Of a stretch of DNA of 64,000 nucleotides, positions 2,365-46,362 are shown one piece after another; positions within the stretch are counted from its first letter, which is position 1, and every line of letters starts with the position of its first letter. Source of the DNA: Agarophyton chilense (taxonomy: Eukaryota > Rhodophyta > Florideophyceae > Gracilariales > Gracilariaceae); the NCBI GenBank assembly GCA_030374765.1, contig JARGXX010000117.1, forward strand, positions 682,001-746,000. The letters are read 5' to 3'. Under the pieces are notes generated by a model that saw nothing but the letters and a program-made list of their open reading frames with translations, was not told where the DNA came from and did not search any database. Position numbers and translations under genes: made by a program.

Positions 2365-2402
<38 letters not shown>

Positions 2403-3382: not shown

Positions 3383-3429
<47 letters not shown>

Positions 3430-17499: not shown

Positions 17500-18517
17500 A
17501 AGAAGAGGTATGAGGTGGCTCTCATAAAATGGGCGACAGTTCTCGAGGTGAGTGTAACGCAATGACTGGTGGGTCAGCGTACTGGTCTCAACCTGGGGTA
17601 CCGTGGTAGAGCGGGTCCTAAGGTTCTTATCCTTGACGGGGGCACTCTCAGAGTACTTTGTGCAATGGGCTGGCGTTTACCGCGTAGTCTTAGAGGTCGG
17701 AGCTACGGAAACGATGGCTTGAAGACCAATTGGTGGAAATAATGTACCAAAGGAATTAATTTAGTATCCTAACGGTGCCTGCCTTACTTTAAGGGAGAAG
17801 CGTCATTTGAGCAAAGTAAATATCAATGGCGAGGCGCTGGGATCTCCCTGGCCCTGTAGTGCTAATCTACTACACTTATTAAAATAAAATAATTATCTAA
17901 ATGAGTCCAGCTGAGGTCGGCCAGTCCACGCGGCATTTGTAAGATACCTCAGGCCCCGGCGGCTTACAGGACTCAACCGTTATCGTTGTTTCTTCACATA
18001 CCTCCCTCCTTAGGATTCGATCGTCTCGGTTAAGTCCAAATTGCCTCATGATTGACCCAGGGGACGTAAGCAATTAGTGGCTCCCATTACCATTTGGTGC
18101 GACAGGACGTCGCGTCGTTATCACCTGCGGGGGTTAGAGGAAGCATGAGCTGACCATTGCCGTCGGGGTGGCAAATAATTTGCCTAAGGACTAAAACTCA
18201 AGCGCGACGAAAGCGCTGGCCATAGGTGCATCGCCGGCGTATTCCTCGTGTCGCGTTGGCGAGATGGTCCCTTGGCTTCTTCACCCATGATGGTCTTTGG
18301 GGCCTTCCTTAGTCTCCGCTATTCCGTTGGCGATCCTCCGCGCTTCGTCCACCGTGGTTTACATTTGTCAGTCCGCACGGGTCAATTCCGTCATCTCGTC
18401 TTCCCATCGTGGTACTTTTTCATTGGTAGCGCGCGATGCCGAACTCGCCTGATAAGCCCATCGGATACACCATTCTCCCTCCGGACTTTGTCGCTTCCGT
18501 CGGTTTCCCTATCCCTT
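17500..18517. other. Likely remnant of an older LTR element (3' LTR edge plus polypurine tract)
   Basis: No intact gene is present. At 17998-18013 the + strand reads ACCTCCCTCCTTAGGA, which on the - strand is the purine tract found next to the 3' LTR of element 2. An A/T-rich stretch of TAAA/AATA words precedes it (17880-17900), as in element 2's LTR. This suggests a degraded relative in reverse orientation, with its LTR to the left of about 17998 and its interior to the right, later cut by element 1 at 18518. Confidence 0.3.
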
Positions 18518-19184
18518 TGTAGCATTCTACTATGTCGGGGAATCCGATAGGATGATTTTTCGCGAAGTCGCGGTTGGAACTCATAAGTGAGTGATGTCAT
18601 CAAACTTGTGATATGAAACGGCATACCGCGTAGGATGCCAGGAGGCAGGGTACATTAGTGGAACACGTGGTATCACGAGTGGACTGGCTTGCAACGGCGC
18701 ATATAGTGGAGATCCACGTGGCAGGTTTTACTACCCTTTGTAGCTAGACGTCCATTAGGGACCATACCCATACAGTAGTTTGGCTAAGTGGCTGACCACT
18801 GGGTATTATTTATATATTTATTTGGGCACTCACTCTGGCACACAGTATATAGGGCACCAGATGTGAGCGCCGACTCCAAGTAAAGGAGACAACATGGGCA
18901 TCATGACTATCCTGTTCTTCGCTTAGGGTTCCTTAACCGGAGATCCGGACAAGCTATAATAGATAGTCAGCCCCCAACCACTTCACGAGCCGTCTCGTAC
19001 CTACGTTCCCTCAACGTTTTACAGTTGCACTGTTCACCCTCGCTGGCGAGTAGTGGCCTTACACCCCACTTCCAGCTCGCTGGTGTTGTAGCTCTACCAC
19101 CCCTTTCCCTTCGCCGCAAGCGACCCATCGGCAGTCCGAAGGCTGTCGCAGATGTCTGCTCTCTCCATTAGAGCGGATACTACA
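18518..19184 (+). repeat. Element 1 left (5') LTR, 667 bp
   Basis: Starts TGTAGCATTCTACTATG and ends GCGGATACTACA. It pairs with 28500-29166 at equal length. A shared block, GTGAGCGCCGACTCCAAG then TAAAGGAGACAAC, also occurs in the solo LTR at 33578-34230, marking a family-conserved LTR core. TATATTTATTT (18808-18824) and TATATAGGG (18846-18854) are possible promoter elements. Confidence 0.95.
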
Positions 19185-19186
19185 AG

Positions 19187-19204
19187 TGGTCTCCCGACTT
19201 AGAA
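19187..19204 (+). promoter_or_regulatory. Candidate primer-binding site, element 1
   Basis: TGGTCTCCCGACTTAGAA begins two bases after the 5' LTR; TGG at the start is the expected complement of a tRNA CCA end. The last 15 bases (19190-19204) recur with one difference directly inside the 5' LTR of element 2. The primer tRNA was not identified. Confidence 0.5.
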
Positions 19205-19399
19205 TCACTGTGGTCAGCTGCACTGAGCAATTCGTTCCTGGAACGTGGAATCGATATCGATACTTGGAAGAAGTGGAATCACTACAGTTATTGTTTATCA
19301 AACCACCTCCGACAATTGCGGAATTCATAGTGGTTGAACACGTGGTCGAGAAGTCGAAGACACCATTTGGTTCGCACTTGGACTCAGGTTTGGGCTAGG

Positions 19400-21553
19400 A
19401 TGCCGAAGACCAGAAGCCAGTCGAGTACTGGTCGCCCAGGTACTGCGGGACCACCCCCGAAACCGAGGCTCGCCTCATCTGTTGAAGCCGGAGAGCAGCT
19501 GTATCGTCAAGCGATGTCGCGCTCACGCTCGGTGAATGATGAACGAGATCTCTCGGATGTACCGGCCCCTGTGGCAGCGGCAGTCACGCCCACCACAGAA
19601 GCCGTAGTTGACTCTAAGGTCGTCGGACTTCAAGAAGAGGATGGTTTGCGCAGGGAAGTGCGTCGTCTCAAGTCTGAGTCAAGCGCTTCGCGTGTGCGCA
19701 TGGTTGCGTTGGAATCGCAGATCTCTGCTCTTATCGCTGATGTCGAACAATTACGCAGTGCGCACCAAGCACTCGTTCGTCAAGACGATGGGAAGCAGGT
19801 CTCTGCATCAGTGAAAACACTACATGAGGATTTGAACCATCTAATGGAGAGGTACGGGAATACGCCCGATGCGCTACCCGGCTTAACAGTGGATGTAGAG
19901 GAAGTCCTCACTCGAATTAAACCTCGTTTAGAACGCCTGGAGGCGGCAGTTCATGCGCAGACTGCTGCTAAACCAGTCGTGCTGGAAGAGGAAGGAGCAC
20001 CTTTGGAGGAAGCTCGTTCGAAGAAGTCGAAGTCACGACGTAAGAAGCGGAAGTCCGCACGTGATTCGAGTGATGAATCGTCAAGTACGGAGGGTTTCAG
20101 TTTCAGTACTGATGATTCTGATGATTCAGATACGTCAGATGACAACGACAGTGATGATGGTCATCGAAGGTCCCGATCTCAGAAGAAGAACACGTCTTCG
20201 TGGTTAATGAGAAAAAAAGGCTCACCTTACAGAAGATTGAAGGTGCTCCTGTGCACGAATCCGCTTTATCGGAAGGTCCTGAATTACAGGTACTACCGTC
20301 TGAACGTGAAGAGCAAGAAGCGCTCAGCACGCGAAACCGCGAAGGTGAAGGATCACATCAAACGATTGAAGATCGGCCTTAATGATTTAACATTTGATTG
20401 GAAAACCCCCATTCTTGTTATCGAGTTTCTCACTCGATTCGTTGCCGAAGCAGACACTCTAGAGATGAGTGAACCACAGGCATTTGTGTCATTACCACAC
20501 TTCCTGAAGGGTTCTGCTTTAGAGCAATATCGTTCCATATGCGGATCATTGACAGCCGATGAAGGCGGCGTTACCTCATGGCCAGAGACGGTGCAGTATT
20601 TGCTGCGCAGTTACGCGACTTCAAACGCGATACGTCAGGCGATCCTGGACCTAAGGGATGTAACCCAAAAGCCTGAAGAGGGCGAAGCTGAGTACAGCTC
20701 AAGGCTTAACAAAGCTTCAGTCCACTGTGGAAACGTCCACTCGACGGAGGACAAGATTAACTTGTACATCGACGGGCTGGACCCGAGCATCATGTCGTTG
20801 GTAGCTCGATATCGAGAGAAGCATGGAAGAGTCTCCTTTTTGGAGTTAGTTCAGTTTGCGAAAGCTGAAGGAGACGCAGCCAGAGCGCGTGGTAGCCCCC
20901 GTCATTCAGTGGCTTTTGGAACCTCAATGGGTAAGGAGAGGATCTCCGCCAGAGTTGATCAGCGCAGCAAACTGCTACATCTGGAATCTCCAGTTGACTC
21001 ACGAGATTTGTCGTTGGCACCCAAAGAGAGTGACTCGCATGAGGAGGCGGTCCATTTAATGGAATATACGGACTCTTCTGTACCTACAGTGGATCTCCTA
21101 CACTCGGAGTCTCAGGACGAGGCAGCCCTAATGGCTATGGAGGGCCGTCGCCCTATGTACCGTCCCTACACGGTTCCACCAAAAGGAGGTTTTAAGAACG
21201 GGAAACCGGGGTGGGTGGATACTCGCACGGCATACCGTTCACAACCTATGTTGACCAACCGTCGTGACGGTTTGATTTGTTATTCATGTTATGGAAAACA
21301 CCATTTTAGTGCAGAATGCACGCTTCCTGCAAAGGATCTGAGTCGTATCATGAGGAATTATGAAGCACTCTCAGAAGAGGAAAGGAGCCGCGTACCGGCG
21401 GGCATGTATTGGAAAGCCAAAAGTTTGTTTTCTCAGACACCAATGCGCCGGACGGACAAGCCGGTTGCTCAGAATGCTGAAGTGGTACAACCCAGAACCC
21501 CGGTAGGAAGAGGCGCCTCTGAGGCGAATAAGCCGGTGCAACCGGAAAACTAA
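19400..21553 (+). CDS. gag: Gag polyprotein of element 1
   Basis: An intact frame of 717 residues. ATG 19400 was chosen because the product then begins MPKTRSQSS, matching the start of the element 2 Gag (PRTRSQTG); an upstream in-frame Met at 19334 also exists. The N-terminal third is Ser/Arg/Lys-rich and acidic with possible coiled coil. The retroviral-type Gag core follows at about residues 290-490 (RYYRLNVKSKK, then ILVIEFLTRFVAEADTLEM and YLLRSYATSNAIRQAI). A CCHC zinc knuckle, C-YS-C-YGKH-H-FSAE-C, lies at about residues 628-641 for RNA packaging. The stop is 21551-21553; pol starts in a different frame 224 bp later. It is the only intact sense gene of this element. Confidence 0.9.
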   Translation: MPKTRSQSSTGRPGTAGPPPKPRLASSVEAGEQLYRQAMSRSRSVNDERDLSDVPAPVAAAVTPTTEAVVDSKVVGLQEEDGLRREVRRLKSESSASRVRMVALESQISALIADVEQLRSAHQALVRQDDGKQVSASVKTLHEDLNHLMERYGNTPDALPGLTVDVEEVLTRIKPRLERLEAAVHAQTAAKPVVLEEEGAPLEEARSKKSKSRRKKRKSARDSSDESSSTEGFSFSTDDSDDSDTSDDNDSDDGHRRSRSQKKNTSSWLMRKKGSPYRRLKVLLCTNPLYRKVLNYRYYRLNVKSKKRSARETAKVKDHIKRLKIGLNDLTFDWKTPILVIEFLTRFVAEADTLEMSEPQAFVSLPHFLKGSALEQYRSICGSLTADEGGVTSWPETVQYLLRSYATSNAIRQAILDLRDVTQKPEEGEAEYSSRLNKASVHCGNVHSTEDKINLYIDGLDPSIMSLVARYREKHGRVSFLELVQFAKAEGDAARARGSPRHSVAFGTSMGKERISARVDQRSKLLHLESPVDSRDLSLAPKESDSHEEAVHLMEYTDSSVPTVDLLHSESQDEAALMAMEGRRPMYRPYTVPPKGGFKNGKPGWVDTRTAYRSQPMLTNRRDGLICYSCYGKHHFSAECTLPAKDLSRIMRNYEALSEEERSRVPAGMYWKAKSLFSQTPMRRTDKPVAQNAEVVQPRTPVGRGASEANKPVQPEN

Positions 21554-21746
21554 GTGAGAGAGCCCCTAGAGGGTCGGCACTAGTCGATCCCGTAGTGCTG
21601 ACCAGGGAGAGCTCGCCTCCCTGCTCCCGAGTTTGGAATCCCAAGATTCTCTTGAGGCCTCAGAAATTTCCGCCGTACGGAATCAATCCGCCGGACGGAA
21701 AGCGAGTACAGTTTGACTGTGAGTTACATCGTCCTTGGAGACGTTA

Positions 21747-21772
21747 AACTTTCCCGTCAAAACGGGAAAGTT
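21747..21772 (+). promoter_or_regulatory. Hairpin just before the element 1 pol start
   Basis: AACTTTCCCGT and ACGGGAAAGTT form a perfect 11-bp stem with a CAAA loop, ending five bases before the pol ATG at 21778. Smaller inverted repeats of TTCCG...CGGAA type lie just upstream (21667-21702). It may act in pol expression by reinitiation or bypass; this is inference. Confidence 0.45.
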
Positions 21773-21777
21773 ACCTC

Positions 21778-24700
21778 ATGGTAGTGTCTAAAAGAAACTA
21801 TAAGGTCTATTCCGACATCGGCTCTGACAGGAATCTGTTATCTCGTCGATTGACTATCCTGGACACTGGTGCTGGTCCGAACTTTATACGGGAATCGGAG
21901 CTCGCTCCTGCTGACTTAGAACGTATTCGATACGGTCCTTTACCGGACATCCGGGATGCCAACAAAAATGCTGTGAAGACACTGGGAACAGTTCGACTCG
22001 TGGTGCGTTTGGGACGCTTTGTAGTCCTAGTCGAATTCATCGTCTGTAAGACGTTAGCTGCACCTGTGGTACTGGGATGTGATTATTGCCACAAGTTTGT
22101 CGAAGCCATTCGCCAGCGAAGAAAACTAGTGGAACTAGATGATGGATGAATGGTACCAATTGTTCGCAAGCCAATGCGTCGTTGCCCCCAAGCACCTCCA
22201 CTTCCACCATCTATGGAATACGGGAAATCCCGAGGACGTGTCTCGCCGAGGATTTGAATAGCGAAGAGTGCCATGCTGAAGGCGCAAACCCAAACTTGGG
22301 TTCAAGTAAGAACAGAACGACACGGACTCATGGTAATTCAACCGAATACTCGGATGTACGAATCCCGTGGATTGCTAGTCGCTAACGGCATTGTTCAGGT
22401 TGATCCTGGTAGCCCCTTTTGGATACAAGTGAGTAATTTCACCGATAACGATTATCAGATACCGAATAATCAGGTTGTTGCAACAGCTTTGCCTCATCCC
22501 ACAGTGGTGGTCCTTACTTATATTTCTACTGCAGAAGTATTGGGATAAGCCCATGTCGGTGACACAGACGAAGAACTGCAAACTCCGTCTGGAGATCAAT
22601 TGCAAACGGCAAAGGATCCAGAGAGCCTGGTCGATGAGCTAGACTTAGCACATGTGTCGGAACACTACAGAACGAAGATCAGGTCTATGCTGAAGAAGTA
22701 TACATCCATGTGGAGTGGAAAACTAGGCGAGATCTCCGCTACGGAACACCACATTGATTGGGCCCCAGGTTCACGACCCATCTCCCAACCGCCCTACAGA
22801 GCGGAACCGCGAACTCGCCAAATCGAGGAGGAGAATGTCAGCAAAATGCTAGAAGAAGGAGTAATAATCTAAGCGGCTCAATCTGCTTGGGCCTCAGCAG
22901 TGGTGGTGGTTCCAAAACCGGAGGTTTCTTTACGATTCTGTATCGATTATCGAAAACTGAACGCAGTTACAGTTCGAGATACATACCCGTTGCCTCGGAT
23001 GGACGAATGTATTGACAGCTTAGGAGAAGCGAACGTGTTCACCACGTTGGACGCCAACTCTGGCTATTGGCAGGTGCCTGTAGCGGAAGAAGACCAAGAT
23101 AAAACCGCATTTGCGTGTCACGCCGGTTTCTACCGTTTCAAAAGGATGCCGTTTGGCTTAACGAATGCACCGGCTACTTTCCAGCGTACTCTGGACATCT
23201 TGCTCTCAAGATACAAGTGGAAGACTTGTTTATTCTATTTGGACGATGTGATCATCTTTTCCCAGGATGTGGAAAGCCATTTACGGCATGTCGAGGAGAT
23301 CCTCAAAGCACTACATAGCGCATGTATCAACTTGAAGTTCAAGAAATGCGAATGGTTCGCTGGCACCGTCCGGTACTTAAGACATTTGATCAAGCCGGGA
23401 CAGCTTGCCATTCAAAAGGCACAAACAGCGGCTCTCCGTGAAGTACAACCTCCGTCGACACAGAAGCAATTGCGTTCTTTCCTCGGCTTGTGCAACGTCT
23501 ACCGACGATTCGTGCCGCGATACTCGCATATAGCGGCACCGCTCAACGCAAATCTGCATACAGGGCAACCAGTACAGCTAGAACAATTCAGACAAGCTGA
23601 AGCGGAAGCGTTCGACACGCCGAAGACAAAGATTATTACAGCCCCAGTCTTGGCGCTGCCCATCCCCAACCCGACATACTCAGTGGATACCGACTCTGGC
23701 GAGTACCAAGTAGGGTTTGCCCTTTTTCAAAAACACCCTGATGGTGAACGAAAACCCATTGGTTACTGGTCAAGATCGCTGAACGCAGATGAGAAGAAGT
23801 ATTCAGTTCCAGAAAAGGAATGCCTTGCAGTCGTTTGGGCTCTAACTACATTGCGACCGTATCTCCAAGGAGAACGTTTTACCGTCAACACGGATCATTC
23901 GTCTCTACGACGGTTACTGTCCATTACAGACCCGTCTGGTCGTCTCACACGATGGCGCTTACGCCTTTCTGAATTCGATTTCGAAGTGAAGTATAAGAAC
24001 GGATTGGCCAATGGCCAAGCTGACGCGCTATCGCGACTCAAAACACTGGGCAAAACCGAAGGCGAAATCGATGAAGAGATACCTTGCTTCTACATGGAGA
24101 CCCATTCACCATCTTTTGAAGAAGAGGAACAAGAGACCCTTGATGATTATTCGGATGCAGACCCGTTACTTGCATTAGCAGACACTGACCCTTCAGTTCA
24201 ACTCGAGCGAATCTCGGGCACTGAGCTCCTCAATGAGCAACACGCCGATACGTTTTGTGCGTCGATACGCTCTCGTCTTAACGGGAGGGAGGAGCTCCCC
24301 TTTTCACTCGATTCACGAGGAATACTGTTAAGACATGTCGAAAAGCATGATCAAATCGTGATTGCACACGTCTTGAAGAGTCGAGTACTCCATCTGGCAC
24401 AAGTCAGCAGATTGTCTGGTCATCCAGGAGGAACGAAGTTGTTCATGACTCTAAGAAGAGATTTTTACTGGCCTACTTTGGCAATGGACTGCCATGCTAC
24501 AGTGAGGTTGTGTACAACATGTGCGAAGAATCGCGTGAAGCTTTACAGGAAGCGGAAACCGATGAAGTTATTCCAGGCGAAAGCGCCTTTACAATACGTC
24601 AGTATCGACATCCTAAGGGAATTGATTCGCTCAAGGCGAGGTTATCGCTACCTATTGGTAATCACCGACCGCTTCTCGAAGCAAGTGCCGACTGTGCCGC

Positions 24701-26376
24701 TGAAGCGGATAACCGCAACCGTAATCGCACAGGCGTTTATCAAACACTGGGTATTTATATACGGACCACCAGAAGTTCTGTTATCAGATAATGAGAAGCA
24801 ATTCGTTGCGAAGTTCTTTCAGAATGTTTGCCGCATTATGATCATTCGAAACGTGCTTTCCACGACCTATCATCCGCAATGCAACGGTCAGGTGGAGCGT
24901 CTCAACCGCACGCTGATAGCAGCAATACGACACTACATCGCGGACCACCCGAAAGAATGGGACATGTTTACAGATACTCTGTGCTACGCGTACAATACGC
25001 AAGTGCATACCTCTACAAAGACGGCACAGTGCGACCTCGTGCTCTCACGTAACCCTCCGGCTTTACCGTTTGCGCTCGACGACGAGATGAAATTGGACGC
25101 GCCGACCCCTGCTAAGTACCATCTGAAATGGAGGAATGACCTGAAGGCCAGAGCGGAAGAAGCTGCTAAGGAGTTATCAAAGACGTAAGCTCGCTATAAG
25201 CGAAACTATGACGCCAGAAGGCGAAGAGGAAATACGGCACTCCGAGTAGAAGGTCACGTCTTCGTGCGAGTCGAAAGACCTGACAAACAGGAAGAATCTC
25301 GTCATAAGTTGTTGCCGATAGTTGCTGGACCCTTCAAAGTGGTGGACCTTAATGAAGACACAGTGGTCATCAAGACAGGTGAGGACGTTGAACGTGTATC
25401 GCCCGATTGCGATGAAGTCACGACTGACCCGCAAGTGGAAGTCCAGGTATCTTGTAGAACTAAGGAGGCAAGTGCGATGGAACGTCAAGGCAAAAGCCCA
25501 AGTGACTCTGGGGAGAGTGAACCGCCACCAATGGCTCGAGCGGAGGAGAAAGCTCCTGATCTCCCACCGCCGGCGGTTGCGTACGCCAATCACGGACAGC
25601 TTCCGAAGTATCGGGATACCCCCCGTGGCACGCACACACCCGTAAGTACAGAAATGGAACCTGAAAGCAGGAAAGATGTTTTGGACTTTGGCCCCAAGGA
25701 CTTGGAAACGAGTACACGCAAAAACGCGCCGTTGCCGCTTCAGGCTGAACCGTCAGATGAAGCGCCACTCGCTGTTCCGCAGATATCGGCTCCCATCCCT
25801 CGTGGGCAGGAAGAAGAAGAGGTATCGCCTCCTGTCGTGGTGCAAGCACCATCGTCCACCGAACAGCGGTCAGAATTGGAGAATCCGAAAGAATTTCATC
25901 CAAGAATAAAATTGAGAAGTAGCAAGAAGTACGCTTCTATGGAACCTGTAAAACAGGATAGCTCTTTATCTGAGAAAGGTTTTCAAGGAATGAGTACAAT
26001 GCCCCTGCGGGCAGAACGACAGATAATCGACGAGCGAACGCTTAGCGACGCTGAGACTGCTAACATAGAGACGCTTGGGTCAGCCTTAAGGCATTTCAAA
26101 CCTGTTAACAGGAGTCTCGCGCAAACAGCGAAAGCATTCGGAAACGCCCAGGAATATGTTATGGATCGCATATGTGAACATGGCGAGCATGAAGATACTA
26201 GAAAATTACTGTATCGAGTCCGTTGGTACGGTTTTCTTCCGGAAGCGGATACGTGGAAACCTATGGCTCATATCCCCCGTTCGCAGCTCGTGCGATATCA
26301 TCGACGCATGCGATTACCACTCCCCAGGGAGATCAACTCCTCGATAGTCGGGCTCATGGGCACATCCGATTTCTAA
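21778..26376 (+). pseudogene. pol: Pol of element 1 (protease-RT-RNase H-integrase-chromodomain), broken by stops
   Basis: All domains lie in one frame with no frameshift. The protease has the active-site DTGAGPNF (about 21859-21882). RT has FCIDYRKLNAVTV, the catalytic FYLDDVIIFS and LRSFLGLCNVYRRF. RNase H has VDTDSGEYQVGFALFQ and KECLAVVWAL. Integrase has an HHCC-like region ending CTTCAKN, then YVSIDIL (Asp), VLLSDNEKQF (Asp) and NGQVERLNR (Glu), so the DDE set is retained. The C-terminal chromodomain (about 26145-26310) reads YVMDRI...LYRVRWYGF...ADTWKPMAHI. In-frame stops are at 22147, 22255, 22546, 22870 and 25186; several sit where element 2 has a sense codon (at 25186, TAA replaces what looks like a Gln codon). 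Chromodomains direct integration toward marked chromatin in related elements. Confidence 0.93.
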
Positions 26377-26648
26377 GTATGGGCTACAAACGTAGTAGAA
26401 ACTCGAAAGGAGAGAAGAAAACAAGAAATCATGAAGAGGAAACGTGAACACACGCAATCAAAGGACATTTATTGATTATCACCTATGACGGACTCGAGAA
26501 GAGAGAAGAAGGATTGAAGAACTCGAGAAGCGAGAAGAGATGAAGACTAGAAGATAAGAAGGGAACGTGAAGACACGAAGTCACCGGAGTTTTATTGGTA
26601 TCCAGATACCACCGCAAGGGTGTTGACTAGGATTCTCTTCTAGGATCA
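26377..26648. other. Convergent gap between element 1 pol and the antisense gene
   Basis: Purine-rich, with a local duplication of ACTCGAGAAG.GAGAAGA (about 26493 and 26521). TTTATT occurs near 26467 and 26590, which on the - strand is AATAAA, a possible poly(A) signal for the antisense transcript. Confidence 0.4.
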
Positions 26649-28331
26649 TCAAAGCGACGTGCGAGCACGCAGGTTCGCAAGAAGCTGTGCGCGATAACCC
26701 TCAACTTGGTCCACGGGAAAGCCCGCATCTAAGAGGAACTTCCTCAGCGGATCCGAGCCTGGATCTTCGACCGGCAATGCACTCGGCTGTTGGGTAAACC
26801 CATGAAAGTTCCCTTGGGCAAGACCCGCCGCTGCGGATTGATCGACGGAAGTCGCTACGCCTGCCAGCTCTGGCTCGTTCTCGTAACCGAGTTCAGCCTC
26901 AGCTCCCGGCGCTTCCTCATACGATTCCTCTCCGTTATCGGATGGAGTAGCATCGTACACGTATCCAGTAAGCTGGTTCGGTGGCATGTCACGCGGGTTC
27001 TCCCGAAGAAAGCGAGCCTGCTCGGAGGGGATCAACTGGCGCGTCCAGGAATCGTACCAAACGAAATCTACAGCACTTGCTGTTCGTCAAGGAGAATGGT
27101 CGTGGTGTCTTGCACGGGTTCCGCGAGCGGATTGATCAGCTGGCACTCCAGACCAGTCGACACTGTCGATCAAATCCGCAAGATGGAGGAAGTCGGCATG
27201 GATCGCCTGGGATCCCAGAACAAGGGAAAGATCGAGTTCTCTCGCATATTATCGCGCTGTGGGAGACATGTATCAAACTCTTAAGGTATCATAAGCATCT
27301 CACAGGAGGACGACGGCCATCTTGCCGATAAACTCGGTATAAAACACCGTCCATTACCCCGAGAATGGGTCGTTAACCAACGCGGACCCGATGTTGGAGA
27401 TCGCCGGTGGGAGCTCCACAGGGATAACACAAGGACTCTCGATCGCCGCCCAATGCTCCGGAATACCAATGTAGCGCCCTAAGCGCGCGTTCCGCCGGAT
27501 GCGGTCAATCTCGATCATTTGATACTGCTCCAAATAGCCCAAACGTGATCGAGTACGACGTTCCCGCCGGGTATAATCCCAATAGTGAATGTCACTCTTT
27601 CGAAGGCAGCGGAACTCCGCAAGGAGAAGAGGTTGCTGAAAGCAGAGAGCTGCATCACGCACAGCGTGCACACCGCGCCAACCGCTAACATCGACTTCAA
27701 CGAGTGTCTCGATATACGAGTAACCGTCACCGTCGGTACGGGCTTTCCAGATATATAGTTCCCAGTCCTGCGGGAGGAGAACCGTACTGATGAATCGGTG
27801 AAGACGCTGGTAAATCAGCTTGGTGAACCGCGTACGGGCTTCGGACAAGGTTTCCGTTGAATATCGCGCAATCGCGTTGTCTGGTAAAGCAATATGGCTC
27901 GCCCAGTCTTGGCTATAAATCACGTGTTCCGGAATACCGTCAGGGAAGTACCCACCGTGTACATACTGTTGTATTAACGCGTCATCGCGGATAGCAACTG
28001 GATCAAACCAGGGCGCTTGCGCGAAAAGTTCAACGTTGTCGAGAGGATCTCGTCCATAGAAATCCGCAGGGTGCGGGTAGCTCCGCTGAGCACGACAAGA
28101 AGGAGCTCGTATCACACCGGCAGAGGCGACGTAAGCCGCGTTCGGAATCTGAGCCACGGTTGGCTGAGGTAACGGTACCGACCGGAATCCGGTGTACGAT
28201 GTGGGGAACGAACGGTATGGACCGAGTTGAGCAGTAGGCTGCGACGCATAACCGGCAGTGTTCGACGGAGCCCCACAAGGCACATCCTCAGAGGAGGGCT
28301 GAAACGGGTTGGACCCGGCGTTCGGATTCAT
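26649..28331 (-). pseudogene. Antisense gene of element 1 (aORF), unknown family, 560 codons with five stops
   Basis: Reads opposite to gag-pol, starting 169 bp inside the 3' LTR. The open parts are 28331-27354 (325 residues) and 27035-26649 (128 residues), in the same frame. Between them stops occur at 27354 (TAA), 27300 (TGA), 27273 (TGA), 27249 (TAA) and 27087 (TGA). Translation straight through these stops stays collinear with the antisense protein of element 2, for example LIDSVDWSGVP here against IIGRVDWAVVP there. Other paired landmarks are APWFDP/ASWFHP, LLAEFRCLRK/LRAEFRHLRR and YQMIEIDRI/YQNTEINRI. The N-terminus is Ser/Pro/Gln-rich, the middle basic and aromatic, and the C-terminus acidic then helical (KFLLDAGFPVDQVEGYRAQL). 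There is no signal peptide, membrane segment or known motif that I recognise. Homology between the copies is clear by eye; function is unknown. Confidence 0.75.
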
Positions 28332-28488
28332 CGCGAGAGATCGAGCTGAAGAGCGGTGAGGAACAGAATGCTGTTGAGAACTGTAAGAGTTGGTCGGGCG
28401 GCGAGGAATTCGTGATGACGATGAGTACCCGGAACACCGGTCCGACTACGTATAAACGCTTCTTGCGTCCCCCATGGTTCGCGCTTAA

Positions 28489-28499
28489 CGAGGGGGGTA
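28489..28499 (+). promoter_or_regulatory. Polypurine tract, element 1
   Basis: CGAGGGGGGTA abuts the 3' LTR start at 28500, the expected place for the plus-strand primer. Confidence 0.75.
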
Positions 28500-29166
28500 T
28501 GTAGTATTCTACTATGTGGGGGAATCCGATGGGTTGGTTTTTCGCGAAGTCGCGGTTGGAACTCATAAGTGAGTGATGTCATCAAACTTGTGATATGAAA
28601 CGGCATACCGCGTAGGATGCCAGGAGGCAGGGTACATTAGTGGAACACGTGGTATCACGAGTGGACTGGCTTGCAACGGCGCATGTAGTGGCGATCCACG
28701 TGGCAGTTTTTACTACCCTTTGTAGCTAGACGTCCATTAGGGACCATACCCATACAGTATTTTGGCTAAGTGGCTGACCACTGGGTATTATTTATATATT
28801 TATTTGGGCACTCACTCTAGCACACAGTATATAGGGCACCAGATGTGAGCGCCGACTCCAAGTAAAGGAGACAACATGGGCATCATGACTATCCTGTTCT
28901 TCGCTTAGGGTTCCTTAACCGGAGATCCGGACAAGCTATAATAGATAGTCAGCCCCCAACCACTTCACGAGCCGTCTCGTACCTACGTTCCCTCAACGTT
29001 TTACAGTTGCACTGTTCACCCTCGCTGGCGAGTAGTGGCCTTACACCCCACTTCCAGCTCGCTGGTGTTGTAGCTCTACCACCCCTTTCCCTTCGCCGCA
29101 AGCGACCCATCGGCAGTCCGAAGGCTGTCGCAGATGTCTGCTCTCTCTGTTAGAGCGGATACTACA
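28500..29166 (+). repeat. Element 1 right (3') LTR, 667 bp
   Basis: Direct repeat of 18518-19184; by eye about 12 substitutions and no indels (about 98% identity). Starts TGTAGTATTC and ends GCGGATACTACA. Confidence 0.95.
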
Positions 29167-31649
29167 GTGTGTAAGGCAGTAGGACACTCAGAGGTGAAGA
29201 AAACTACCACGGACGCAATGGGAGTGCAAGACCTGATGTCGCACGCAGCGTTACGACATCAGCAGTAAAGCAAATGCAATGCTTCGATTCAGCCTGCGCG
29301 CCACGACTGAAAGGGCAGAATGCAACTGCGGTAACAGCTCGAGTGAGCGCGTTTGAAATGCAAAGGTCACGAGCGTAATGAAGCCAAAGCGCGTCCGAAG
29401 CGAATGGACTCGGGGAAGCATATATAAGAGGACGGAGCGAACAAGTCTTGAAGAAATAAAGTAGTCGCGGGAGGAGAGACGAACGCGCAGGCAACTTGAG
29501 TCCTGAAATTGTTTATCGCCTCCGTATTCGAACCACACTTCTCGCCCTGTGTAATCATGAGTGACAGCTTCGGTAGTCTCACAACAGTATTGAAGCAAAT
29601 CGCAGTTGTTCTTCTTCCGATGGGTTCCCAGTAAGTTGCGTACCTTTGAATCTTTTTACAAAGGCGTGTAACTTGGAGTATTCCCTTCGAATGATGTCAT
29701 ATTGTCCCGGACCTGCTCGCACCGAACGTCCGTTCCACCTGCCATACTCGTGATCGCCCTTTTTTCTTGGCGATGCACGCTCCAGTTGCACGCTGTAAAA
29801 CCTTATTGAAACCCGCACGCTTTCTTCTCACTTTTTCAATATTGTTCATGCCAGAATCAATCTCCAAATCTTAAAAGACTTTTAGAACCGCACGTGAGAG
29901 GGCTGTGTTCTCTAAATCACTCCAAACCAAGCTCTTGCCACCATTCTCTTTCTTTCTGCGTTCCAAATGCTTCATCTCTGGTATTCTCTCTTTTGCGTTC
30001 GCGTTATTGTGATCCATTGCAAATCGTTACTGTAGATAGAGCGGTTGGTTAATTGCATTCCATTGATTATTTGTGTACAACCTTCTGATTGAAGCTCAAG
30101 CGCGAATGTCACGGCGCTTTTTTTTTAGATTAATGGAACATGTTTTTTGATGGTTCGTTTTGTTGCGATACAAGAGTTTCTCCGTACAATGCAGTGATTT
30201 TGAGATTCTCTACTTGCTAACATTTTGTTAGTAGTAAAGAACTGTTGAAATTTTTTAGCAAACGGTATTTTCAAAACAGAGTGATCTTCGTAGTCGTCGT
30301 GGTCTGATACTTTGCATGAGTTACTTTTACGTTGGTATAGCTTTATTGGTTTTTTGGTCGTGGCGAAGGGGCAAAGCAGGGTCGAGAACGGATTGAAATG
30401 ACAAGACATGGTCTTTACACGATGCAGTGCTGTCGTATCATTTTGCCTTCGTTGTTATTCTTCATGAACGAAACTATGCTTTTTTAACTACAAACAGTCA
30501 CTCCGATGCTGCATGCTGACCTTCTTGAATAATAAGTAGCTTGCCGACCATTTTGGATTAATCCAACTCCACGCTTGCGATTGTGTGGCATGTACGAAGG
30601 TTTTTTGTAAAACAACACGCGTTAGCGTCACCACAAAATTTTGCGTGCCATTTTTACGTTGCAGCGATAATGGTAGGGGCAAGGTAAATCCTTATATCTC
30701 GCAAAAGCCCAAAATATATACTTAAGGCCGCATCTTAATGTGCGATAATATGCACATTAACTTTATGCCCTCATAACTAAGCCCCTCTCGAGACAAACAA
30801 AAACCTGAAAGTACTGGGGCCTTCCAAAAGATGTTCTGCGAGCTGTGACTGAATATCTTTCATATCAAACAAATAATGAGACTGTTACAATGTCACTAAT
30901 GTACACCCTTGAAGAGGAGTTTTACTTATCGAAAAAGCCCAATTGTACAATAAAACGCACAGAAGGACAACCAGTTTAGACACAAAAGAAACAACCTCTG
31001 CAAAAAAGCAGCCCATCAACCCGTATTAATGAGTCCGCCTTCATTTTTAGCTTCCATGTGAGTTACCATTAGATAAATGAGAGCGCTACAATGAGGAACG
31101 CCGAAAAACCTCTTTTGTACGAAGAAAAAATATTAGTGGCGTTCCTTCATTCTCGAACTCATTAACAGCGTTCTCATTTGTTCCTTCTTCCAAAGGAGGT
31201 TCTAATGAGCTGTTTTCTCCATTCTTAGATGCACTCCGCTCTCCGTTTTTGACCATTCTGGCTTTTGAGGTGAATTTAGAGGGTATTCTGCGCTCCTCCA
31301 AATGCTTCACACTGTGTCAAATGTGTGAACAGCGTTTGCGAAAGCCAGGCGGAACATTAATGCAAAGATTTACGTTGCACATGCTACATTTGAATGTTGC
31401 ACGGCAACCTCTATACCCATTTGTGTTCTGTCGTCATAACGAACAATGCTTTAGAGTCGTGTTGTGATGCCCCCTCTCAGAAAGACAAAGTGCTATACCG
31501 TCTGGCGAGTTAAAGAAATCGATTATGTTGCGCTTCCTAATTTTTGCAATGGCGACAAGGTACTTTGCTTCATCGTTGGCCATTTATGGCACTCCTTCGG
31601 TAGCAGATTGATTAGCCGACTGAATCTGAATAGTTGCAGCGTGGCTCAG
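29167..31649. other. No confident gene; possible NAM/Myb-like fragment
   Basis: The region is mostly non-coding. A - strand stretch (29818-29579) reads EYGRWNGRSV...YDIIRREYSKLHAFVKRF and then NPSEEEQLRFA, which resembles the second half of the NAM/Myb-like DNA-binding module found in PIF/Harbinger-type elements. It is short and isolated. TATATAA occurs at 29420-29426. From 29830 to 31649 I see AT-rich DNA without coding signal. Confidence 0.3.
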
Positions 31650-36130: not shown

Positions 36131-37016
36131 TGTAGGACAACGCTTGGAGCGGAGATACCACGAAGATGTTCGGGATCTTCCTCTCTTGAGAGACACGCCT
36201 CAGGCGGAGGAGACGCGTCCCAGCGTAGCACAGAAACAGAGCCACTCTGAAAAGGCACGACGAAGTCGGGTGTAAGACCGAGGCCAATCCGGCGGGATAT
36301 ACCTAGAGTGTTTAGGTGAGCACTGCACAGCCCGGGGTGTGACCAGTCCTAAGCGGAGCGGTACCACGGCGATCGTCGGAAAAGGAGCGAGGAAACACTC
36401 GTATGAGGTGGACGAGAGGGGTGAGTGGTGCGGCCACTCACGAGAGCCAAAAAGGAGAACGAGAGAAAAACGGGGTCGAAACCCTATACAGGGGCGAGAC
36501 TACGACAAGTGTCGGCGATTAAATATGAACCCACGGTGGTGGTAGCACTCTGGTCGACAGAGGGATGGATGAACTAACGTGCAACGAACGGTCACGCAGT
36601 ATGCGGTGAAGACGCGCCGAAGGCGAAAAGTTCAGAGCCAAGACTCCCTCCTTGGGATCCCAAGAAGGTGTTTACTGGGGAGCAGTGCTCAATTTCCTAA
36701 GTAGTGTGGCGCGCGGCCCCTGACAGTGGGCGCGCGCCCGAAAAATAGACACTAAATAGCGATAGCGTAGCCAAATAAATACTAAAAATTACTAAATAAT
36801 ACTAACCATTACGTAGAATCTGGGCCACGTGTGGCACGCCTCGTACTCAAGCGTTGGCATCCGTGAAGTCCACGTGTTCCACCCGTGTGCACGTCTGGTC
36901 CTAACCGGCCGTCAGCACGCAATAGCGGTATAGCTTGTCATAGGCCAAGCTAGTCCTCAAGCGAGCGAACTTCCTAAGTCCTTGGAAGAAACCCCCCTGA
37001 AGGGCATTGTCCTTTA
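36131..37016 (-). repeat. Element 2 3' LTR, 886 bp
   Basis: Starts TGTAGGACAACGC and ends ATTGTCCTTTA on the + strand. Direct repeat of 46363-47247. Confidence 0.95.
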
Positions 37017-37017
37017 T

Positions 37018-37031
37018 ATCCCCCTCCTTAG
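37018..37031 (-). promoter_or_regulatory. Polypurine tract, element 2
   Basis: On the - strand CTAAGGAGGGGGAT lies one base inside the 3' LTR. The core CTAAGGAGGGGG recurs exactly at two internal sites (40023-40034 and 43160-43171). Confidence 0.8.
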
Positions 37032-37051
37032 GTGACGAACACGCCGTCGAT

Positions 37052-38920
37052 ATGGCGGGGAGGCAACGATCCAAGCGGCATAAGAGCGAGCCGCGTAACG
37101 CGTTCAGCGACCACTCGACTGTCGAAGACAGAGCTGCATCACCGAACGACAAACGCAACAAAGCGGTAACCACTCCTCGAACTTCGAGCGCTATTCCTCA
37201 TCGTACGCCAACTTCCAGCGACCACATCCCGATACCTCGGCGAACAGCACTCCCGATGAACGGTGGTGACAATCCCCGCCGGGGTTACTTCTCCGGTTTC
37301 TATTCAGCTCTCCTTCCGCGGGAGAGTGCCTCCTCAACTGCGCCGAGCCGATCCCGGGGTCCCGTTGAATCTTCAAGCCACATCACTCCTGCGGAGGGCA
37401 CTTGGCCCAGTTACGACGAACTCGTCGGGTTAAACCCGCGTCAACATGCGGGGATTCTCCGGAGAGCTTCGTGGTTCCATCCGACAGACGTCTTCGACGA
37501 AGAACTCGTGGCCGCGTATGCTGATGGCAATGCGCGTCTCCCGGGCGAGCTGCCGGCTTTTATCACCACTTTGTGGGACTGGCGACGCCGTGTGGCGGTT
37601 CCCATTCACGCGATTCTGCGGCGAAGGCGCGAGTCGGCGGAAGAGGCACATTGTACCTTCGTCCGCATCGGCTACTCACGGATCAACCGGGCAAACTTTC
37701 AATACCCCATCCCCAATGAATTCGGCTTTGACCTACGGATGTACCGAACGCAGGGTGAGATCGGCTATTGTGACCGCCTTGCGGCGTTGGAAAGTTACGC
37801 ATGGCGCGGTTAACCGCGAGCGCGTCGAGAAGTGATCTGCTGGGTCCGTCCGATCCTTCGTGCTGAGTTCCGTCACCTTCGCCGTGAGTCCCGATATCGG
37901 TGGTTACAGAACTTCATCCGCGAGGAGCGTCGGGGCAGATCCCGCTTTGGGTTCTTTGTCCCTTATCAGAACACGGAGATAAACCGGATTAGTCCCATCT
38001 ATCAGTTCGGGCGATACGTTCCCCTGCCTGGGTGGTGGTCCTCTGTCGAGGTGTGCCGGGGATGCTACGTGGAGTTGACTCTAGTCGTCTCCTATCTGGG
38101 CTCGTACCTCATCGAGGATCCGCACTCCGGCTTATGGTCCGTGGTCCTAACCGAATGGGCAGTCCGCGCCGAGGCGTACATCTTGTGGGAAGCCTACGAC
38201 CAGTATCGACTGTGGTATATTCCTCTGCGCTTACGTGGTCACATCCGGCAGCTGGACCTTCAACTTCCTCTTGGAGGTGTCAATAACGCCGATGAAACTC
38301 AGGAGCTCATCGACATCATTGGGCGTGTCGACTGGGCTGTTGTGCCTGTCCGGCAGAGCGACCGTGGTCAAGAAGCCGGTGGGGCTGATCGGTCTCCGGG
38401 GCGTCGCACGCCGTTGGCGAAAGATTTCATCTTCTTTAACCCATGGGAGCAGCAAGAGATTTCCGAGGCGGAGGCGTCGGCACTCCGGATGGCTCCGCGA
38501 GGCATACCATACGGGCACCCCGTGGGGTTTGTCAACTCGGGTGACTTCTACTACGCCTATGGCGGTGATGATCTCCCGGAGGAGGAGGGCGAATACCGTG
38601 GCGAAGAGTTCATGGAAGACGTTGGAGATCCCGATGGTGCCGATACTACGGCGCAGCCGGCGCAGGGAGCGACTCACGCAGGTGCGGTCATCGATCCAGT
38701 GGCGGCGGCGTTGCCGGACGAACCGGAAGTGATCAAGGTTCCCATACGCCCAGAGGCGGTCGTGATCTCACAGTTCTTTCGGGGTGTTGGACTGAACGCG
38801 CAAGCGGCAAGTGGCGACATCGGTGCGATGAGAGACGCCCTCGTGGCACGCCTGGCCGGCGGGAGTAACTCCGCTAGCGATTCGGCTGGCGCGCACGGTA
38901 ATCCGGGTTCTTCCAACTGA
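37052..38920 (+). pseudogene. Antisense gene of element 2 (aORF), 622 codons with one stop
   Basis: Reads against gag-pol from just inside the 3' LTR. ATG 37052 (MAGRQRSKRHKSE) is the first Met outside the LTR. The frame is open except for TAA at 37811-37813, which aligns with a Val codon in element 1; both sides are in the same frame. The N-terminus is basic and Ser/Thr/Pro-rich. The central region contains ASWFHP, LRAEFRHLRRES, SRFGFFVPYQNTEINRI and RVDWAVVP, all matched in element 1. An acidic stretch (YGGDDLPEEEGEYRGEEF) and a helical C-terminus (VVISQFFRGVGLNAQAASG) follow, again as in element 1. I recognise no catalytic motif, signal peptide or membrane span, so an envelope role is unlikely. 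It could be structural, regulatory, or a once-captured host gene. Confidence 0.8.
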
Positions 38921-40022
38921 TCCCTTGGGATCTTGGTTAGTATATCCCGCTGTGCGGTAGTGTGTGCAGCAACTTCGAAAATAGTAAACTGCTTCCATCT
39001 ATGACGTATTTGTTTTCTTCCTTCTCTTCCACTTCTTCTGAGTGTCCCTCTCCAGGTCTTCTGTGCAGCTTCTCCTTCTTCCAAGGGTCCTTATCGAAAT
39101 CTTCTGTTCCTTTATCCCCATCGGGTGTATTCCTATCCCACTTGGGCTCGGTCTATGGTAGCTGGCAAAGCCGTGACAGTACGACGATGATACTGTACCA
39201 CCTTTGACCGAGGTAGGTGCTCTATCGGTTCGTCTGAATCCCATTCGGGGCCGTACCCGTTCCAACGGACCAAATATTGGATATACCCCTTTGGGTGGTA
39301 GGAGTGCTTCAAAATGCGCCCTACCACGAACTCTTGTCGGTACACTTCCCGGCCATCCCGTATGACGGTGTCGCTATTTCCGGGTGGTACCCGTCCTAAG
39401 CCAGGAGGTAGCTAAGTGATCACGCGTTGGGCGGCTTCGCTCCGGTCGGACCGTGTAGCGCGCGAGGCAGTCCTCGGCTGAGTGGAATGTCGACCCGACT
39501 TCGGCGGTTCATTTTCCCCAAGTGCCGGGCTTGTTTCGGCGCTTCCCACTCCGGTTGGAGGGCCCACACCAGCGGGTAACCCGGGTGGTCGTTCCGCTAA
39601 TCGGCATGGTGAAGCTCGCTTCGGCGGTAAGATTCGCTGGGGCGGTGGCGCATTGGCGCACCTCTCTGTCCCACGGCGAGGTTCCGTGTAGTCAAATGAG
39701 GGTTCCAATGGCTGGCTGTCCGGCGTCGGCGCCGTGGATGTATCCGCCTCCATGTGCGGGGTACTTGGTGGTGCGTCGTCCACTCGTACTGTATCAGGCT
39801 GCGGTGCGTCGAGCGCATTTGCATTCCGTGTTGCACGTGTGGTGACACCTCGGCGAGTGTTGGTGGCGTTATCCGCAGCTGCGTTCTGAGGCTCGGATAG
39901 CGACTGAGTCGAGTCGTGGAAGACGTCGGTATCAGGCACCCCTGATGGGCGAAGAATGACATGCGACGGTGCAGCCTTTCCAGCAACGGTATCGACCAGA
40001 TTACGACGGCTGTCGGGCGCTT

Positions 40023-40034
40023 CCCCCTCCTTAG
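40023..40034 (-). promoter_or_regulatory. Candidate central polypurine tract 1, element 2
   Basis: Exact copy (12 bases, CTAAGGAGGGGG on the - strand) of the tract beside the 3' LTR. It lies in coding sequence, read there as S-K-E-G. Confidence 0.45.
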
Positions 40035-43000
40035 ACGATGCACCGGGGTTGGTGTCCGTCGGGTGGACTGGGGAGGAGCGACGGATGCGCGACACGATTC
40101 CTTGCGGGTTGGGCGCCGCGGGTAGCGGAAGGTCAAACAAACCCCGAGATGAGTGTGGTAAGGCGTAGGCACGCGGGTGGACCTGGGGTAAGGGGGTCGA
40201 GGAATCCGTTTCAACGGGAGCAGTAACACCAGTAGGTTGGGAGGTTAACGGCGGAGGAGCCGATACCACGCGATCGCGGGAGATGCATTCGTGATTACCA
40301 GCGAGGTCAAGAACGACAGTGTCGGGAGCCACCGAAATAACCCGAAAGGGGCCGTCGGCAACGGGTGACAGCTTGTGGCGTTTCTCCTTCTCTGATTCCA
40401 GTACTCCTTGCGGATGAATACATAACCGTCGGGGGCGAGACGTGGCGGCGAGCAAGGGGCTTTCATATCAAAGTCACGCTTGTAAGCGGCCTGGGCTCGG
40501 CCCATTGAACGCCGTGCGGCGGGAACGAGCTTCGTGAGCCAAGTTTTCCACGCTTCGCAGTGAGCAGTTGGTGACGGAAAGGTACCCAGCGTGGGCTGTG
40601 GTTCCAGCGCTACGGGCGGTGGGGTACGGGACAGTACCAGCTCGAAGGTCGTTAATCCAGTTGTCCTGTGCACCTGCGTATTGTACGCAAAGGTGAGCGC
40701 ATCAGTGAACAAGTCCCATTCTTTGGGGTGGTCTGCAACGTATGAACGTAGTGTCGCAAGTATTGTCCGGTTAAACCGTTCGGCCTGCCCATTAGTTTGG
40801 GGGTGGTAAGTGGTCGTGAACAGGTTCTTAATGTCCAAGATGCCACACACATCCTCGAAGAAACGAGAGGCGAAATGTCTCCCGTTACCGGAGAGGAGGT
40901 TGACCGGTGGACCGTCGACGAAGACCCAGTGTAGGACGAAGGCTTGAGCCACGCTCATAGCCGAGATCTTCCGTAACGGTACGGTCCGGACCAGCTTGGA
41001 GAAGCGATCCGTAATTACGAGTAAGAACTTGTAATTCCGCTTAGTGGTAAGGAAGGGACCGAGTATATCGATGGCCACAAACTCCAATGGAGCGCGAGCT
41101 GGAAACAGCTTCAACTTCGTCGCATGGCGGCGGAGTTTGACACGGTTCCGAGCGCAATCGGTACAAAACCGCACCGTTGCGTAGCAGTCCACTGCCATGG
41201 CAGGCCAGTAGAAGTTACGGCGTAGGGTGAGGTATTGTTTCCGTCCCCCGACGTGGCAACTCAGTTTGGAGTAGTGCGACAACCGCAAGACTCTCGACTG
41301 GAGGTTATGTGCTACCACTATTTGTGGGTGCGATCCAACGGTCCGTACACGGTATCCGGCGTCATTCACCTGAAAGGGGAGAGTACCTCCTCCATTGAGT
41401 TGAGCGCGGGCCTTCGCGCAGAACGGGTCAGCGAATTGCTCCCGTATCATCTCCTCTGGAGTAATAGGCACGAAATGCCCTGGTAATGGTTTCTCGGAAT
41501 CTTCCAAGAGAAGAAAGTCGTCCAATTGGGAACCGGAATCTGAAGAGTCCGTGTCTCGTTCCTCGTCCTCGATGGTAGCGTCGTCACCATTCACTGCAAA
41601 GCAGGGTATTTCATTGTCTTTGACGGGTAGTGCTTCGCCAGTAGTGACCAGGCGGGAGAGAGCATCGGGTTGGGTGTTGCACGATCCTTTTCGGTACTCC
41701 ACGTCAAAATCAAATTTTGCTAGACGGAGACGCCAACACATCAAGCGGCCTGGAGGCTCCGAGATGGAGAGTAGCCATCGAAACGATGCGTGGTCCGTGA
41801 AAACGGTGAAGTGATTACCCATGAGATAGGGGCGCAGCGTTTGTAATGCCCACACTACTGCAAGGCATTCCTTCTCCAAGAAGGAGTAATTTTTCTCGTG
41901 GACGTTTAGCGACCGGGACCAGTACCCTACGGGGCGTCTTTCCCCATTGGTTGCAGTTTGAAACAGTGCACAACCTACTTGGTAGTCGCTGGCGTCCGTA
42001 TCTACGGTGAAGGGCCTTCCAGGCTTGGGCAACGAAAGGATCGGGGCTGAGACGACAGAATCTTTAAGAGAGTTGAAAGATTCCGTTTGAAAGGGGGTTA
42101 AGGGGTCCAGTTTTGGTGGTTGGCCTTTCCGTAAAAGCGCTTTTAACGGTGCAGCCTTGTCTGCAAAGTGCAGGATGAATCGTCGGTAGCCGTTTGCGAG
42201 TCCGAGAAAGGAACGAAGCTCGGTTTGCGTCCGCGGTTCTTTAGCCTCTTTGAGTGACTTAACACGAGTCTCCTCGATTGTAACACGTCCTGGACGGATA
42301 ACATGGCCGTGATCCTTCACGGTGTCCGTGAAGAAGTCACATTTCTTCAACTTAAGAGTGACACCCGCATCTCGAAGCGTGGTCATGATATCCCTCACAT
42401 GAATGAGATGTTTGTCCAGATTTTCTGAGAAGACGATTATGTCATCCAGGTAGACCAGGCAGGTACGCCGTTTGAAGCGGGCCAATAGGATGTCGATGGC
42501 TCGCCGGAAAGTAGCAGGGGCGTTGGTAAGACCAAAAGGCATCCGTTTGAAACGGTAGAGACCGGAGTGACACGCGAAACCGGTTTTATCCTGGTCTTGC
42601 TTCCCTACTGGAACTTGCCAGTATCCCCAATTGGCGTCCAGGGTTGTAAAGACGGTGGCGGTGCCCAGCGAGTCAATGTACCGTCCATTCTTGGGATTGG
42701 ATATACGTCCTTGACGGTAACGGCATTCAACCGACGGTAGTCGACGCAAAACCTCCAGAAACTGTCCTGCTTTGGAGCCAGTACTACTGGAGAAGCCCAC
42801 GGCGACTGAGCCGGTTCAATGACTCCTGCTCGAAGCATTTTATCCACTTGTGCCTTTTCCTCCGCGCGGGCGGCGGGTCCGACACGGTATAGGTGCTGAG
42901 AGATGGGGCGGGTGTCCGGTAGAAAATCAATCCGGTGTTCCGTAGTGGCAATCTCACCAAGGGAGCCGTCCCACATAGTGGCGAAGTCCCTTAACAGTTC

Positions 43001-43159
43001 TCGCAATCGATGGCGGTATGACTCCGGGACGTGGGTGAGATCCAGGTCCTCGAGTTCTTGGACTGGATCGGGGCGGTCACCACTCGTTGAAACGGGCTGC
43101 GTTCTTAATGTTACAGGTTGAACCCCGGGTACCGATAATAAAACGGGTTCCCGGGCTGT

Positions 43160-43171
43160 CCCCCTCCTTAG
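43160..43171 (-). promoter_or_regulatory. Candidate central polypurine tract 2, element 2
   Basis: Second exact copy of the 12-base tract, read in a different frame (T-L-R-R-G), so protein constraint does not explain the match. Confidence 0.45.
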
Positions 43172-46361: not shown

Positions 46362-46362
46362 T

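Follow-up and report, generated by a model that had tools for sequence, protein, structure and literature searches.

A conserved antisense accessory gene in four families of Ty3/gypsy retrotransposons of the red alga Agarophyton chilense

Introduction

Antisense open reading frames (ORFs) situated between pol and the 3' long terminal repeat (LTR), designated aORF-3R, are described in the excerpted text of PMC7264820 for maize Grande (gene23), rice RIRE2, Silene Retand, PvRetro13 and the fungal element Boty, and a promoter is reported there in the region upstream of Grande gene23. Of the Retand clusters, 97% contain antisense ORFs that encode the TRP28 protein (PMC11963269, excerpts). Human T-lymphotropic virus types 1 and 2 (HTLV-1 and HTLV-2) likewise have antisense proteins, HBZ and APH-2, as described in the excerpts of PMC11963269 and PMC7264820. 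Antisense genes of LTR elements are known from flowering plants and one fungus. Here we analyze a 64,000-nucleotide stretch of the red alga Agarophyton chilense (GenBank assembly GCA_030374765.1, contig JARGXX010000117.1, positions 682,001 to 746,000 of the forward strand), referred to below as the window. Two oppositely oriented Ty3/gypsy elements lie within it, E1 (18518-29166, plus strand) and E2 (36131-47247, minus strand), and both carry an antisense gene in this arrangement.

A sequence-only reading of the window had pointed to a long frame opposite gag-pol in each element, located between the chromodomain and the 3' LTR, and had proposed that two different Ty3 families share an antisense protein gene. 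We find the frame at this place in both elements, and we extend its distribution to four families in the genome, E1 to E4. In this genome, chromodomain-type Ty3/gypsy elements carry an antisense accessory gene of approximately 610-660 codons that was retained as a protein while these four families diverged. In E1 and E2 the gene extends from the 3' LTR edge in the direction of pol, and in E3 and E4 it adjoins pol in antisense orientation. The arrangement is of a kind already known from plant LTR elements, as the sequence-only reading had remarked (PMC7264820, PMC11963269, excerpts of both). As far as our searches show, the protein family and the host group are new, as is the occurrence of such a gene in several diverged families within a single genome. 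Among the papers listed by our literature searches, none dealt in its title or abstract opening with antisense ORFs in red-algal retrotransposons, the portions of PMC12477816 and PMC12502185 consulted had no bearing on that subject, and we do not claim that such ORFs are not in print.

Results

The antisense gene of E1 occupies 26646-28475 on the minus strand, and by sequence reading that of E2 occupies 37052-38920 on the plus strand. The E1 frame, read from 28445 down to 26646 (minus strand), contains APWFDP, LLAEFRCLRK, SRLGYLEQYQMIEIDRI and LIDSVDWSGVP, and the E2 frame at 37001-38920 (plus strand) contains ASWFHP, LRAEFRHLRR, SRFGFFVPYQNTEINRI and IIGRVDWAVVP, all of them motifs that the sequence-only reading had listed. 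The acidic stretch and final helix that it had described are also present in the E1 frame, where the last segment is helical in a structural model. That reading was silent on the state of the two window copies, which are both broken. The E1 copy has five in-frame stops ahead of its terminal stop pair, and a sixth (TAG) if translation begins at the upstream ATG (28475) rather than at a second possible ATG at 28331. The E2 copy has one in-frame stop, and longer open copies of it exist elsewhere in the genome.

Copies of both genes were sought in 79.8 Mb of genome sequence. At least 112 copies of the E1 protein and at least 111 of the E2 protein were scored, lower bounds that represent the best 112 of 1498 and the best 111 of 1617 first-look candidates. 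Twenty loci of each family, picked for a stop-free matched stretch, were fetched. Sixteen of the 20 E1 loci (L019-L034) were open over 607-611 codons; among the 112 E1 matches listed, 17 were open over at least 607 codons, 16 of these having been checked by fetching. The longest frames among the 20 fetched E2 loci measured 613-667 codons, and the longer open E2 copies are found among L039-L052. We rejected a chance frame as the explanation, as none of 1200 dinucleotide shuffles (4 x 300, one locus per family) came near the observed length: the longest shuffled frame did not exceed 385 codons, compared with 611, 667, 651 and 650 codons observed in E1 to E4.

A search with a distant relative brought to light two additional families, E3 (frame of about 652 codons) and E4 (640-650 codons). 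Of the 98 mixed E3, E4 and E2 matches listed, a lower bound, 62 were stop-free in the matched stretch and 47 also had a frame measuring 636 codons or more. A single copy of E3 and a single copy of E4 were fetched. On the strand opposite the accessory frame, the E3 copy has chromodomain and integrase matches and the E4 copy has integrase matches. Additionally, E3 matches the chromodomain-bearing part of E1 (44% over 86 amino acids). A C/T run, the complement of a polypurine-tract-like run, lies near the frame start in copies of all four families; in the single copies of E3 and E4, both a neighboring pol and this run were seen. Over the 273 bases preceding the E3 frame, the 39 other matches listed show 97-99% identity, which suggests a young family that has spread recently. 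For E1, 35 of the 58 pol places listed had a listed accessory match on their 3' side, all 35 on the opposite strand, with a gap of 1694-2387 nucleotides.

The protein is shared between the families. Open E1 and E2 proteins are 37% identical over 419 amino acids (E = 1e-84), and core identities among E1 to E4 range from 40 to 64% over about 300 residues; the pol proteins of E1 and E2 are 53% identical over 735 amino acids, and DNA similarity by blastn between the two elements is limited to three short pol pieces. In a six-frame comparison over 341 core codons, the antisense frame was the best conserved in all six family pairs. For E1 and E2 its mean BLOSUM62 score per residue was 2.01, with the five other frames scoring from -0.32 to 0.58. 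The third codon position was the most variable in all six pairs (in the order third, first, second), the E1-E2 differences at positions one, two and three being 0.45, 0.41 and 0.70.

The second-best conserved frame, rev1, scored up to 2.27 per residue (E2-E3) and is interrupted by 13-18 stops over the 341 core codons; mirrored codons can produce such similarity. The rev0 frame holds long sense ORFs, for example of 271, 283 and 298 codons opposite the gene in copies of E1, E2 and E3, and its identity between families is 19-36% versus 41-64% for the antisense frame. These sense ORFs are misplaced relative to one another (codons 384-666 in the E2 copy, codons 169-466 in the E3 copy), and the E1 and E4 copies tested have no sense-strand frame above 180 codons within the gene span. 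Since conservation between families is confined to the antisense frame, in which third positions vary most, constraint on a sense product does not account for the similarity. We therefore rejected sense-strand constraint, which the sequence-only reading had named beforehand as fatal to its claim, on the six-frame comparison and on the differing places of the sense frames.

Between E1 and E2, the proportion of differing sites is 0.77 at synonymous positions, which are saturated, and 0.49 at nonsynonymous positions (0.44 within the core). Ranked by identity, the six family pairs fall in the same order for an integrase piece (154-156 residues) as for the accessory core, as expected if both travel together, although four families make this a weak test. 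Taken together, we regard it as nearly certain that the accessory gene is real and selected.

The build of the protein is alike in all four families and consists of a Ser/Pro/Thr-rich head with basic first 60 residues, a core, an acidic segment and a short tail. The net charge of residues 511-590 is -17, -18, -18 and -10 in E1 to E4. In the structural model, the basic, Ser/Pro-rich head is unstructured, the core of about 380 residues is folded and the short tail is helical. The core bears conserved Arg- and aromatic-rich motifs and is mostly helical in its own model (pLDDT 84.8, pTM 0.85, 21 aligned sequences); the full-length model has a pLDDT of 68.8. An alignment of 16 sequences contains no invariant Cys or His. 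By hydropathy, a rough test, there is no clear membrane segment, as the top 19-residue mean is 1.07-1.57 in E1, E3 and E4; the E2 maximum of 1.74 falls within a C-terminal extension that one long copy carries.

The claim that the protein belongs to no known family holds for Pfam cut-offs, for sequences in the Protein Data Bank (PDB), and for PDB and viral folds. Pfam gave nothing above cut-off in the accessory proteins, and ten proteins scanned at a maximum E value of 10 had no Pfam match. A search of PDB sequences yielded one row at E 0.43 and none with a profile. No PDB fold matched the full-length or core model at E <= 0.001, and no viral fold matched the full-length model at that threshold, the row for a spumavirus gag standing at E 9.9 with a TM score of 0.07. 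In IMG/VR contigs 19 stretches matched a pattern and none was confirmed as a relative. Homology to gag was rejected because hhalign gave a probability of 0.5% against the E1 gag and no fold matched. We also dropped the idea of a DNA-binding tail, since the E3_binding hint discussed below falls in the core rather than the tail and the Ish1 hint is weak and confined to one member.

Among approximately 5.8 billion proteins, relatives with a species name were found only in A. chilense and Gracilariopsis chorda; each search scored roughly 8000 candidates, those sharing the most words. Identity to the A. chilense proteins is 88-89%, equal to that among copies within the genome, and the G. chorda relatives are annotated as hypothetical proteins. 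A tree was built from 19 proteins, namely 15 of P0001-P0019 (without P0002, P0003, P0004 and P0017) and one copy each of E1 to E4; rows P0018 and P0019 are short, with under half of the columns filled. E1 groups with the A. chilense members (100/100), and a wider grouping (100/100) joins these to a set that includes a G. chorda protein and is itself supported at 96/94. A different G. chorda protein clusters with E2 and E3 (100/100). Six of the 16 inner forks are drawn open. Relatives on both main branches indicate that the gene is old. Because both the E1 and E2 kinds occur in Gracilariopsis, they predate its split from the alga of the window, unless they moved between species. The long retention proposed by the sequence-only reading is supported, as the protein is shared by four families and has relatives in two red-algal species.

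The antisense ATG lies at 28475 in E1 (context ACCATGG) and at 37052 in E2, only 25 and 36 nucleotides, respectively, from the LTR edge. The upstream ATG is present in 13 of 16 E1 copies; in E2, eight of 14 copies hold the ATG stretch in the open frame and seven have the ATG. The 25- and 36-nucleotide spacing leads us to infer that transcription begins within the 3' LTR or right at its border. The 3' LTRs of E1 (28500-29166, plus strand) and E2 (36131-37016, minus strand) are accordingly the putative seats of the antisense promoter. A purine run in E1 at 28490-28497 (plus strand), situated between the antisense ATG and the LTR edge, is a putative polypurine tract.

The remaining features of E1 are those of a Ty3/gypsy element on the plus strand. 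Its 5' LTR (18518-19184) is 98.1% identical to 28500-29169 by blastn, and the LTR ends read TGTAG...CTACA. A gag frame at 19331-21553 matches Retrotrans_gag (PF03732, E 7e-08), pol at 22873-25188 encodes reverse transcriptase, RNase H and integrase (PF00078, PF17917, PF17921, PF00665), and 25189-26376 encodes the C-terminal part of the integrase with a chromodomain. The Chromo match (PF00385, E 3.1e-05) scores 24.3 bits, slightly below the 25.1-bit cut-off. Despite its 98% identical LTRs, E1 lacks a target-site duplication (18513-18517 versus 29167-29171) in the same scan that found GATTG flanking E2; recombination between elements is a possible cause.

In E2, on the minus strand, the 5' LTR (46363-47247) was delimited by LTR pairing and reading of the ends, and the LTR pair is 94.5% identical by blastn (36131-37016 to 46363-47245). 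The pol region (39412-42815) comprises two overlapping frames, one for reverse transcriptase, RNase H and integrase (40245-42815) and one for the C-terminal part (39412-40467). The gag region (44141-46244) also has two frames, 44958-46244 and 44141-45100, and is assigned by position and by a weak, sub-threshold zinc-knuckle (CCHC) match in the latter (E 0.027); Pfam found no gag-family match in this region, and none of the E2 frames scanned matched a chromodomain.

Outside the two elements, the first 6000 nucleotides of the window are 68-74% G+C, compared with 42-59% elsewhere in it, and genes and repeat DNA may differ sharply in composition. A KN-type homeodomain protein is encoded at 1288-3633 on the plus strand (Homeobox_KN, E 2.7e-14). 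A Helitron-type helicase frame, open over 1091 amino acids, lies at 9071-12346 on the minus strand (Helitron_like_N, E 7e-26; PIF1, E 9.2e-37), and two tandem 120-nucleotide units at 8442-8681 are 82% alike. Adjoining E2, a chondroitin N-acetylgalactosaminyltransferase-like gene occupies 48697-50643 on the plus strand (CHGN, E 7.6e-46).

Discussion

Several readings of the function of this protein have to be weighed. The likeliest of them, which we consider about evenly poised between right and wrong, is that the protein acts as a nuclear regulator of its own element. An antisense promoter in the 3' LTR would drive the accessory gene, as the 25-36 nucleotide spacing in E1 and E2 suggests. The product would then act in trans as a nuclear accessory regulator, and its target could be transcription of the element, export of its RNA or the returning pre-integration complex. 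Models of this kind have been put forward for GENE23 of maize Grande and for HBZ, a retroviral antisense protein. The antisense promoter of HTLV lies in the 3' LTR, and HBZ and APH-2 act in the nucleus. The build of the accessory protein, with its basic head, folded core, acidic linker and helical tail, suits a regulator associated with nucleic acid or chromatin better than an enzyme or an envelope protein.

Two other functions seem to us unlikely. In the first, the protein would counter host silencing, at the level of RNA or chromatin, that the converging sense and antisense RNAs of the element would provoke. Transcripts running antisense through the element would be expected to yield double-stranded RNA, and the families are numerous (at least 112 and 111 copies), with the near-identical sequence upstream of E3 pointing to recent spread. 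Abundance does not need a suppressor, however, and the lack of any Pfam match above cut-off means that there is also none to a described silencing suppressor. In the second, which we hold equally doubtful, the protein would be a structural or transport component of a particle or nucleoprotein complex, such as an added capsid, a nucleocapsid or a movement-like part. A folded, mostly helical core of about 380 residues without invariant Cys or His would fit this role, as would long retention together with pol. Against it stand the absence of profile similarity to the E1 gag and of a viral fold match for the full-length model, and the sense RNA could presumably supply such a part more easily, antisense expression amounting to separate dosing.

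Capture of a host gene, either as a chance rider or kept for the benefit of the host, is improbable. The annotation of the G. chorda relatives as hypothetical proteins would be compatible with it, but named relatives are restricted to two red algae within the searches made, the gene adjoins pol in the same antisense orientation at the places examined, and a chance rider would decay across families. Finally, an origin of the antisense frame as a side effect of base composition or of a conserved sense product, for which the long sense frames and the second rank of rev1 might speak, is very hard to reconcile with the stops in rev1, the low rev0 identity, the scattered or absent sense ORFs, the variable third positions and the shuffles.

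Several observations weigh against a selected antisense gene acting as a nuclear regulator. The sequence-only reading had held that a dN/dS near 1 across many copies would refute its claim, and the within-family values go halfway towards this result: the ratio is high, with a median of 0.785 in E1 (117 of 120 pairs) and 0.595 in E2 (91 of 91 pairs). These values come from 16 E1 and 14 E2 copies, with L035-L038 (four of 20 E1 loci) and L053-L058 (six of 20 E2 loci), most of which have shorter frames, omitted. Copies drift after insertion, so that a high ratio would arise from ageing copies anyway. L043 was omitted from A2. The ratio of nonsynonymous to synonymous changes (N/S) is lower among shared than among singleton variants, the direction that selection would give, at 1.59 versus 2.36 in E1 and 1.34 versus 2.62 in E2 (40 E1 and 30 E2 loci, reduced to 36 and 26 by removal of near-identical ones). 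The shared N/S is similar in other frames (1.51 and 1.62 in E1, 1.41 in E2) and is not specific to the antisense frame. Of the 23 E1 pol places without a listed accessory match, three were examined over 2 kb each, and while two held remnants, one had none. For E3 and E4, the evidence at the LTR side consists only of the purine-tract-like run by the frame start. The sole Pfam hints are far below cut-off, namely E3_binding, which three members show in the core (best E 0.029), and Ish1, seen in the tail of P0007 (E 0.092). Furthermore, the nuclear site and the binding of nucleic acid are argued by analogy.

More speculatively, and with a good deal less confidence than we place in a nuclear regulator, the proteins may form a retrotransposon-specific family with a new fold, expressed antisense from the LTR to regulate or shield the element, that arose with the red-algal chromodomain Ty3 elements independently of the plant proteins; a bolder version would place a common source before the split of red and green lineages. 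A second, unlike protein family at the same place and in the same orientation in red algae would mean that such genes have been gained or kept repeatedly. Repeated gain or retention would argue for a general need, such as regulation, nuclear entry or escape from silencing. As one genome has four diverged families, at least one of them with near-identical copies, the question lends itself to testing against RNA-seq and small-RNA data from red algae.

The comparison with known systems places the gene closest to the plant aORF-3R. Like the env-like sense ORFs of plant and insect LTR elements (PMC7264820, excerpts), it is an extra gene between pol and the 3' LTR. Unlike these, it has the opposite orientation and no clear membrane segment, and an env-like protein was rejected on orientation and on the rough hydropathy test. 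It shares with HBZ and APH-2 the antisense orientation, and possibly an LTR promoter, to which the spacing at the LTR edge points here; its product is larger, has a folded core and gave no bZIP match in the Pfam scans, so that an HBZ-like bZIP protein was rejected.

Retand TRP28 (Transposase_28, PF04195) is likewise antisense and has been suggested to be a DNA-binding regulator (PMC11963269, excerpts). In contrast, none of the 18 different accessory proteins scanned matched PF04195, and membership in the TRP28 family was rejected on this basis; a whole-genome PF04195 search that gave no match carries no weight, since its 14 controls were equally silent. Retand belongs to a non-chromovirus lineage of flowering plants, whereas E1 has its Chromo match just under cut-off and E3 matches that part of E1.

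The red-algal gene differs from the plant aORF-3R, as compared through Pfam, in its host, in having no recognizable domain and in the chromodomain match of E1. It also differs from Grande gene23, for which the excerpts of PMC7264820 give a promoter in the upstream region, in that the E1 and E2 antisense frames start 25-36 nucleotides from the LTR. In E1 it lies within an LTR element defined by an LTR pair, pol and a gag match, and in E2 within one defined by an LTR pair and pol, in both cases antisense between pol and the 3' LTR. Like the plant aORF-3R in the excerpted accounts, it is antisense at this place and kept in many copies, with relatives at the protein level in two species, and a nuclear or regulatory role is proposed for both.
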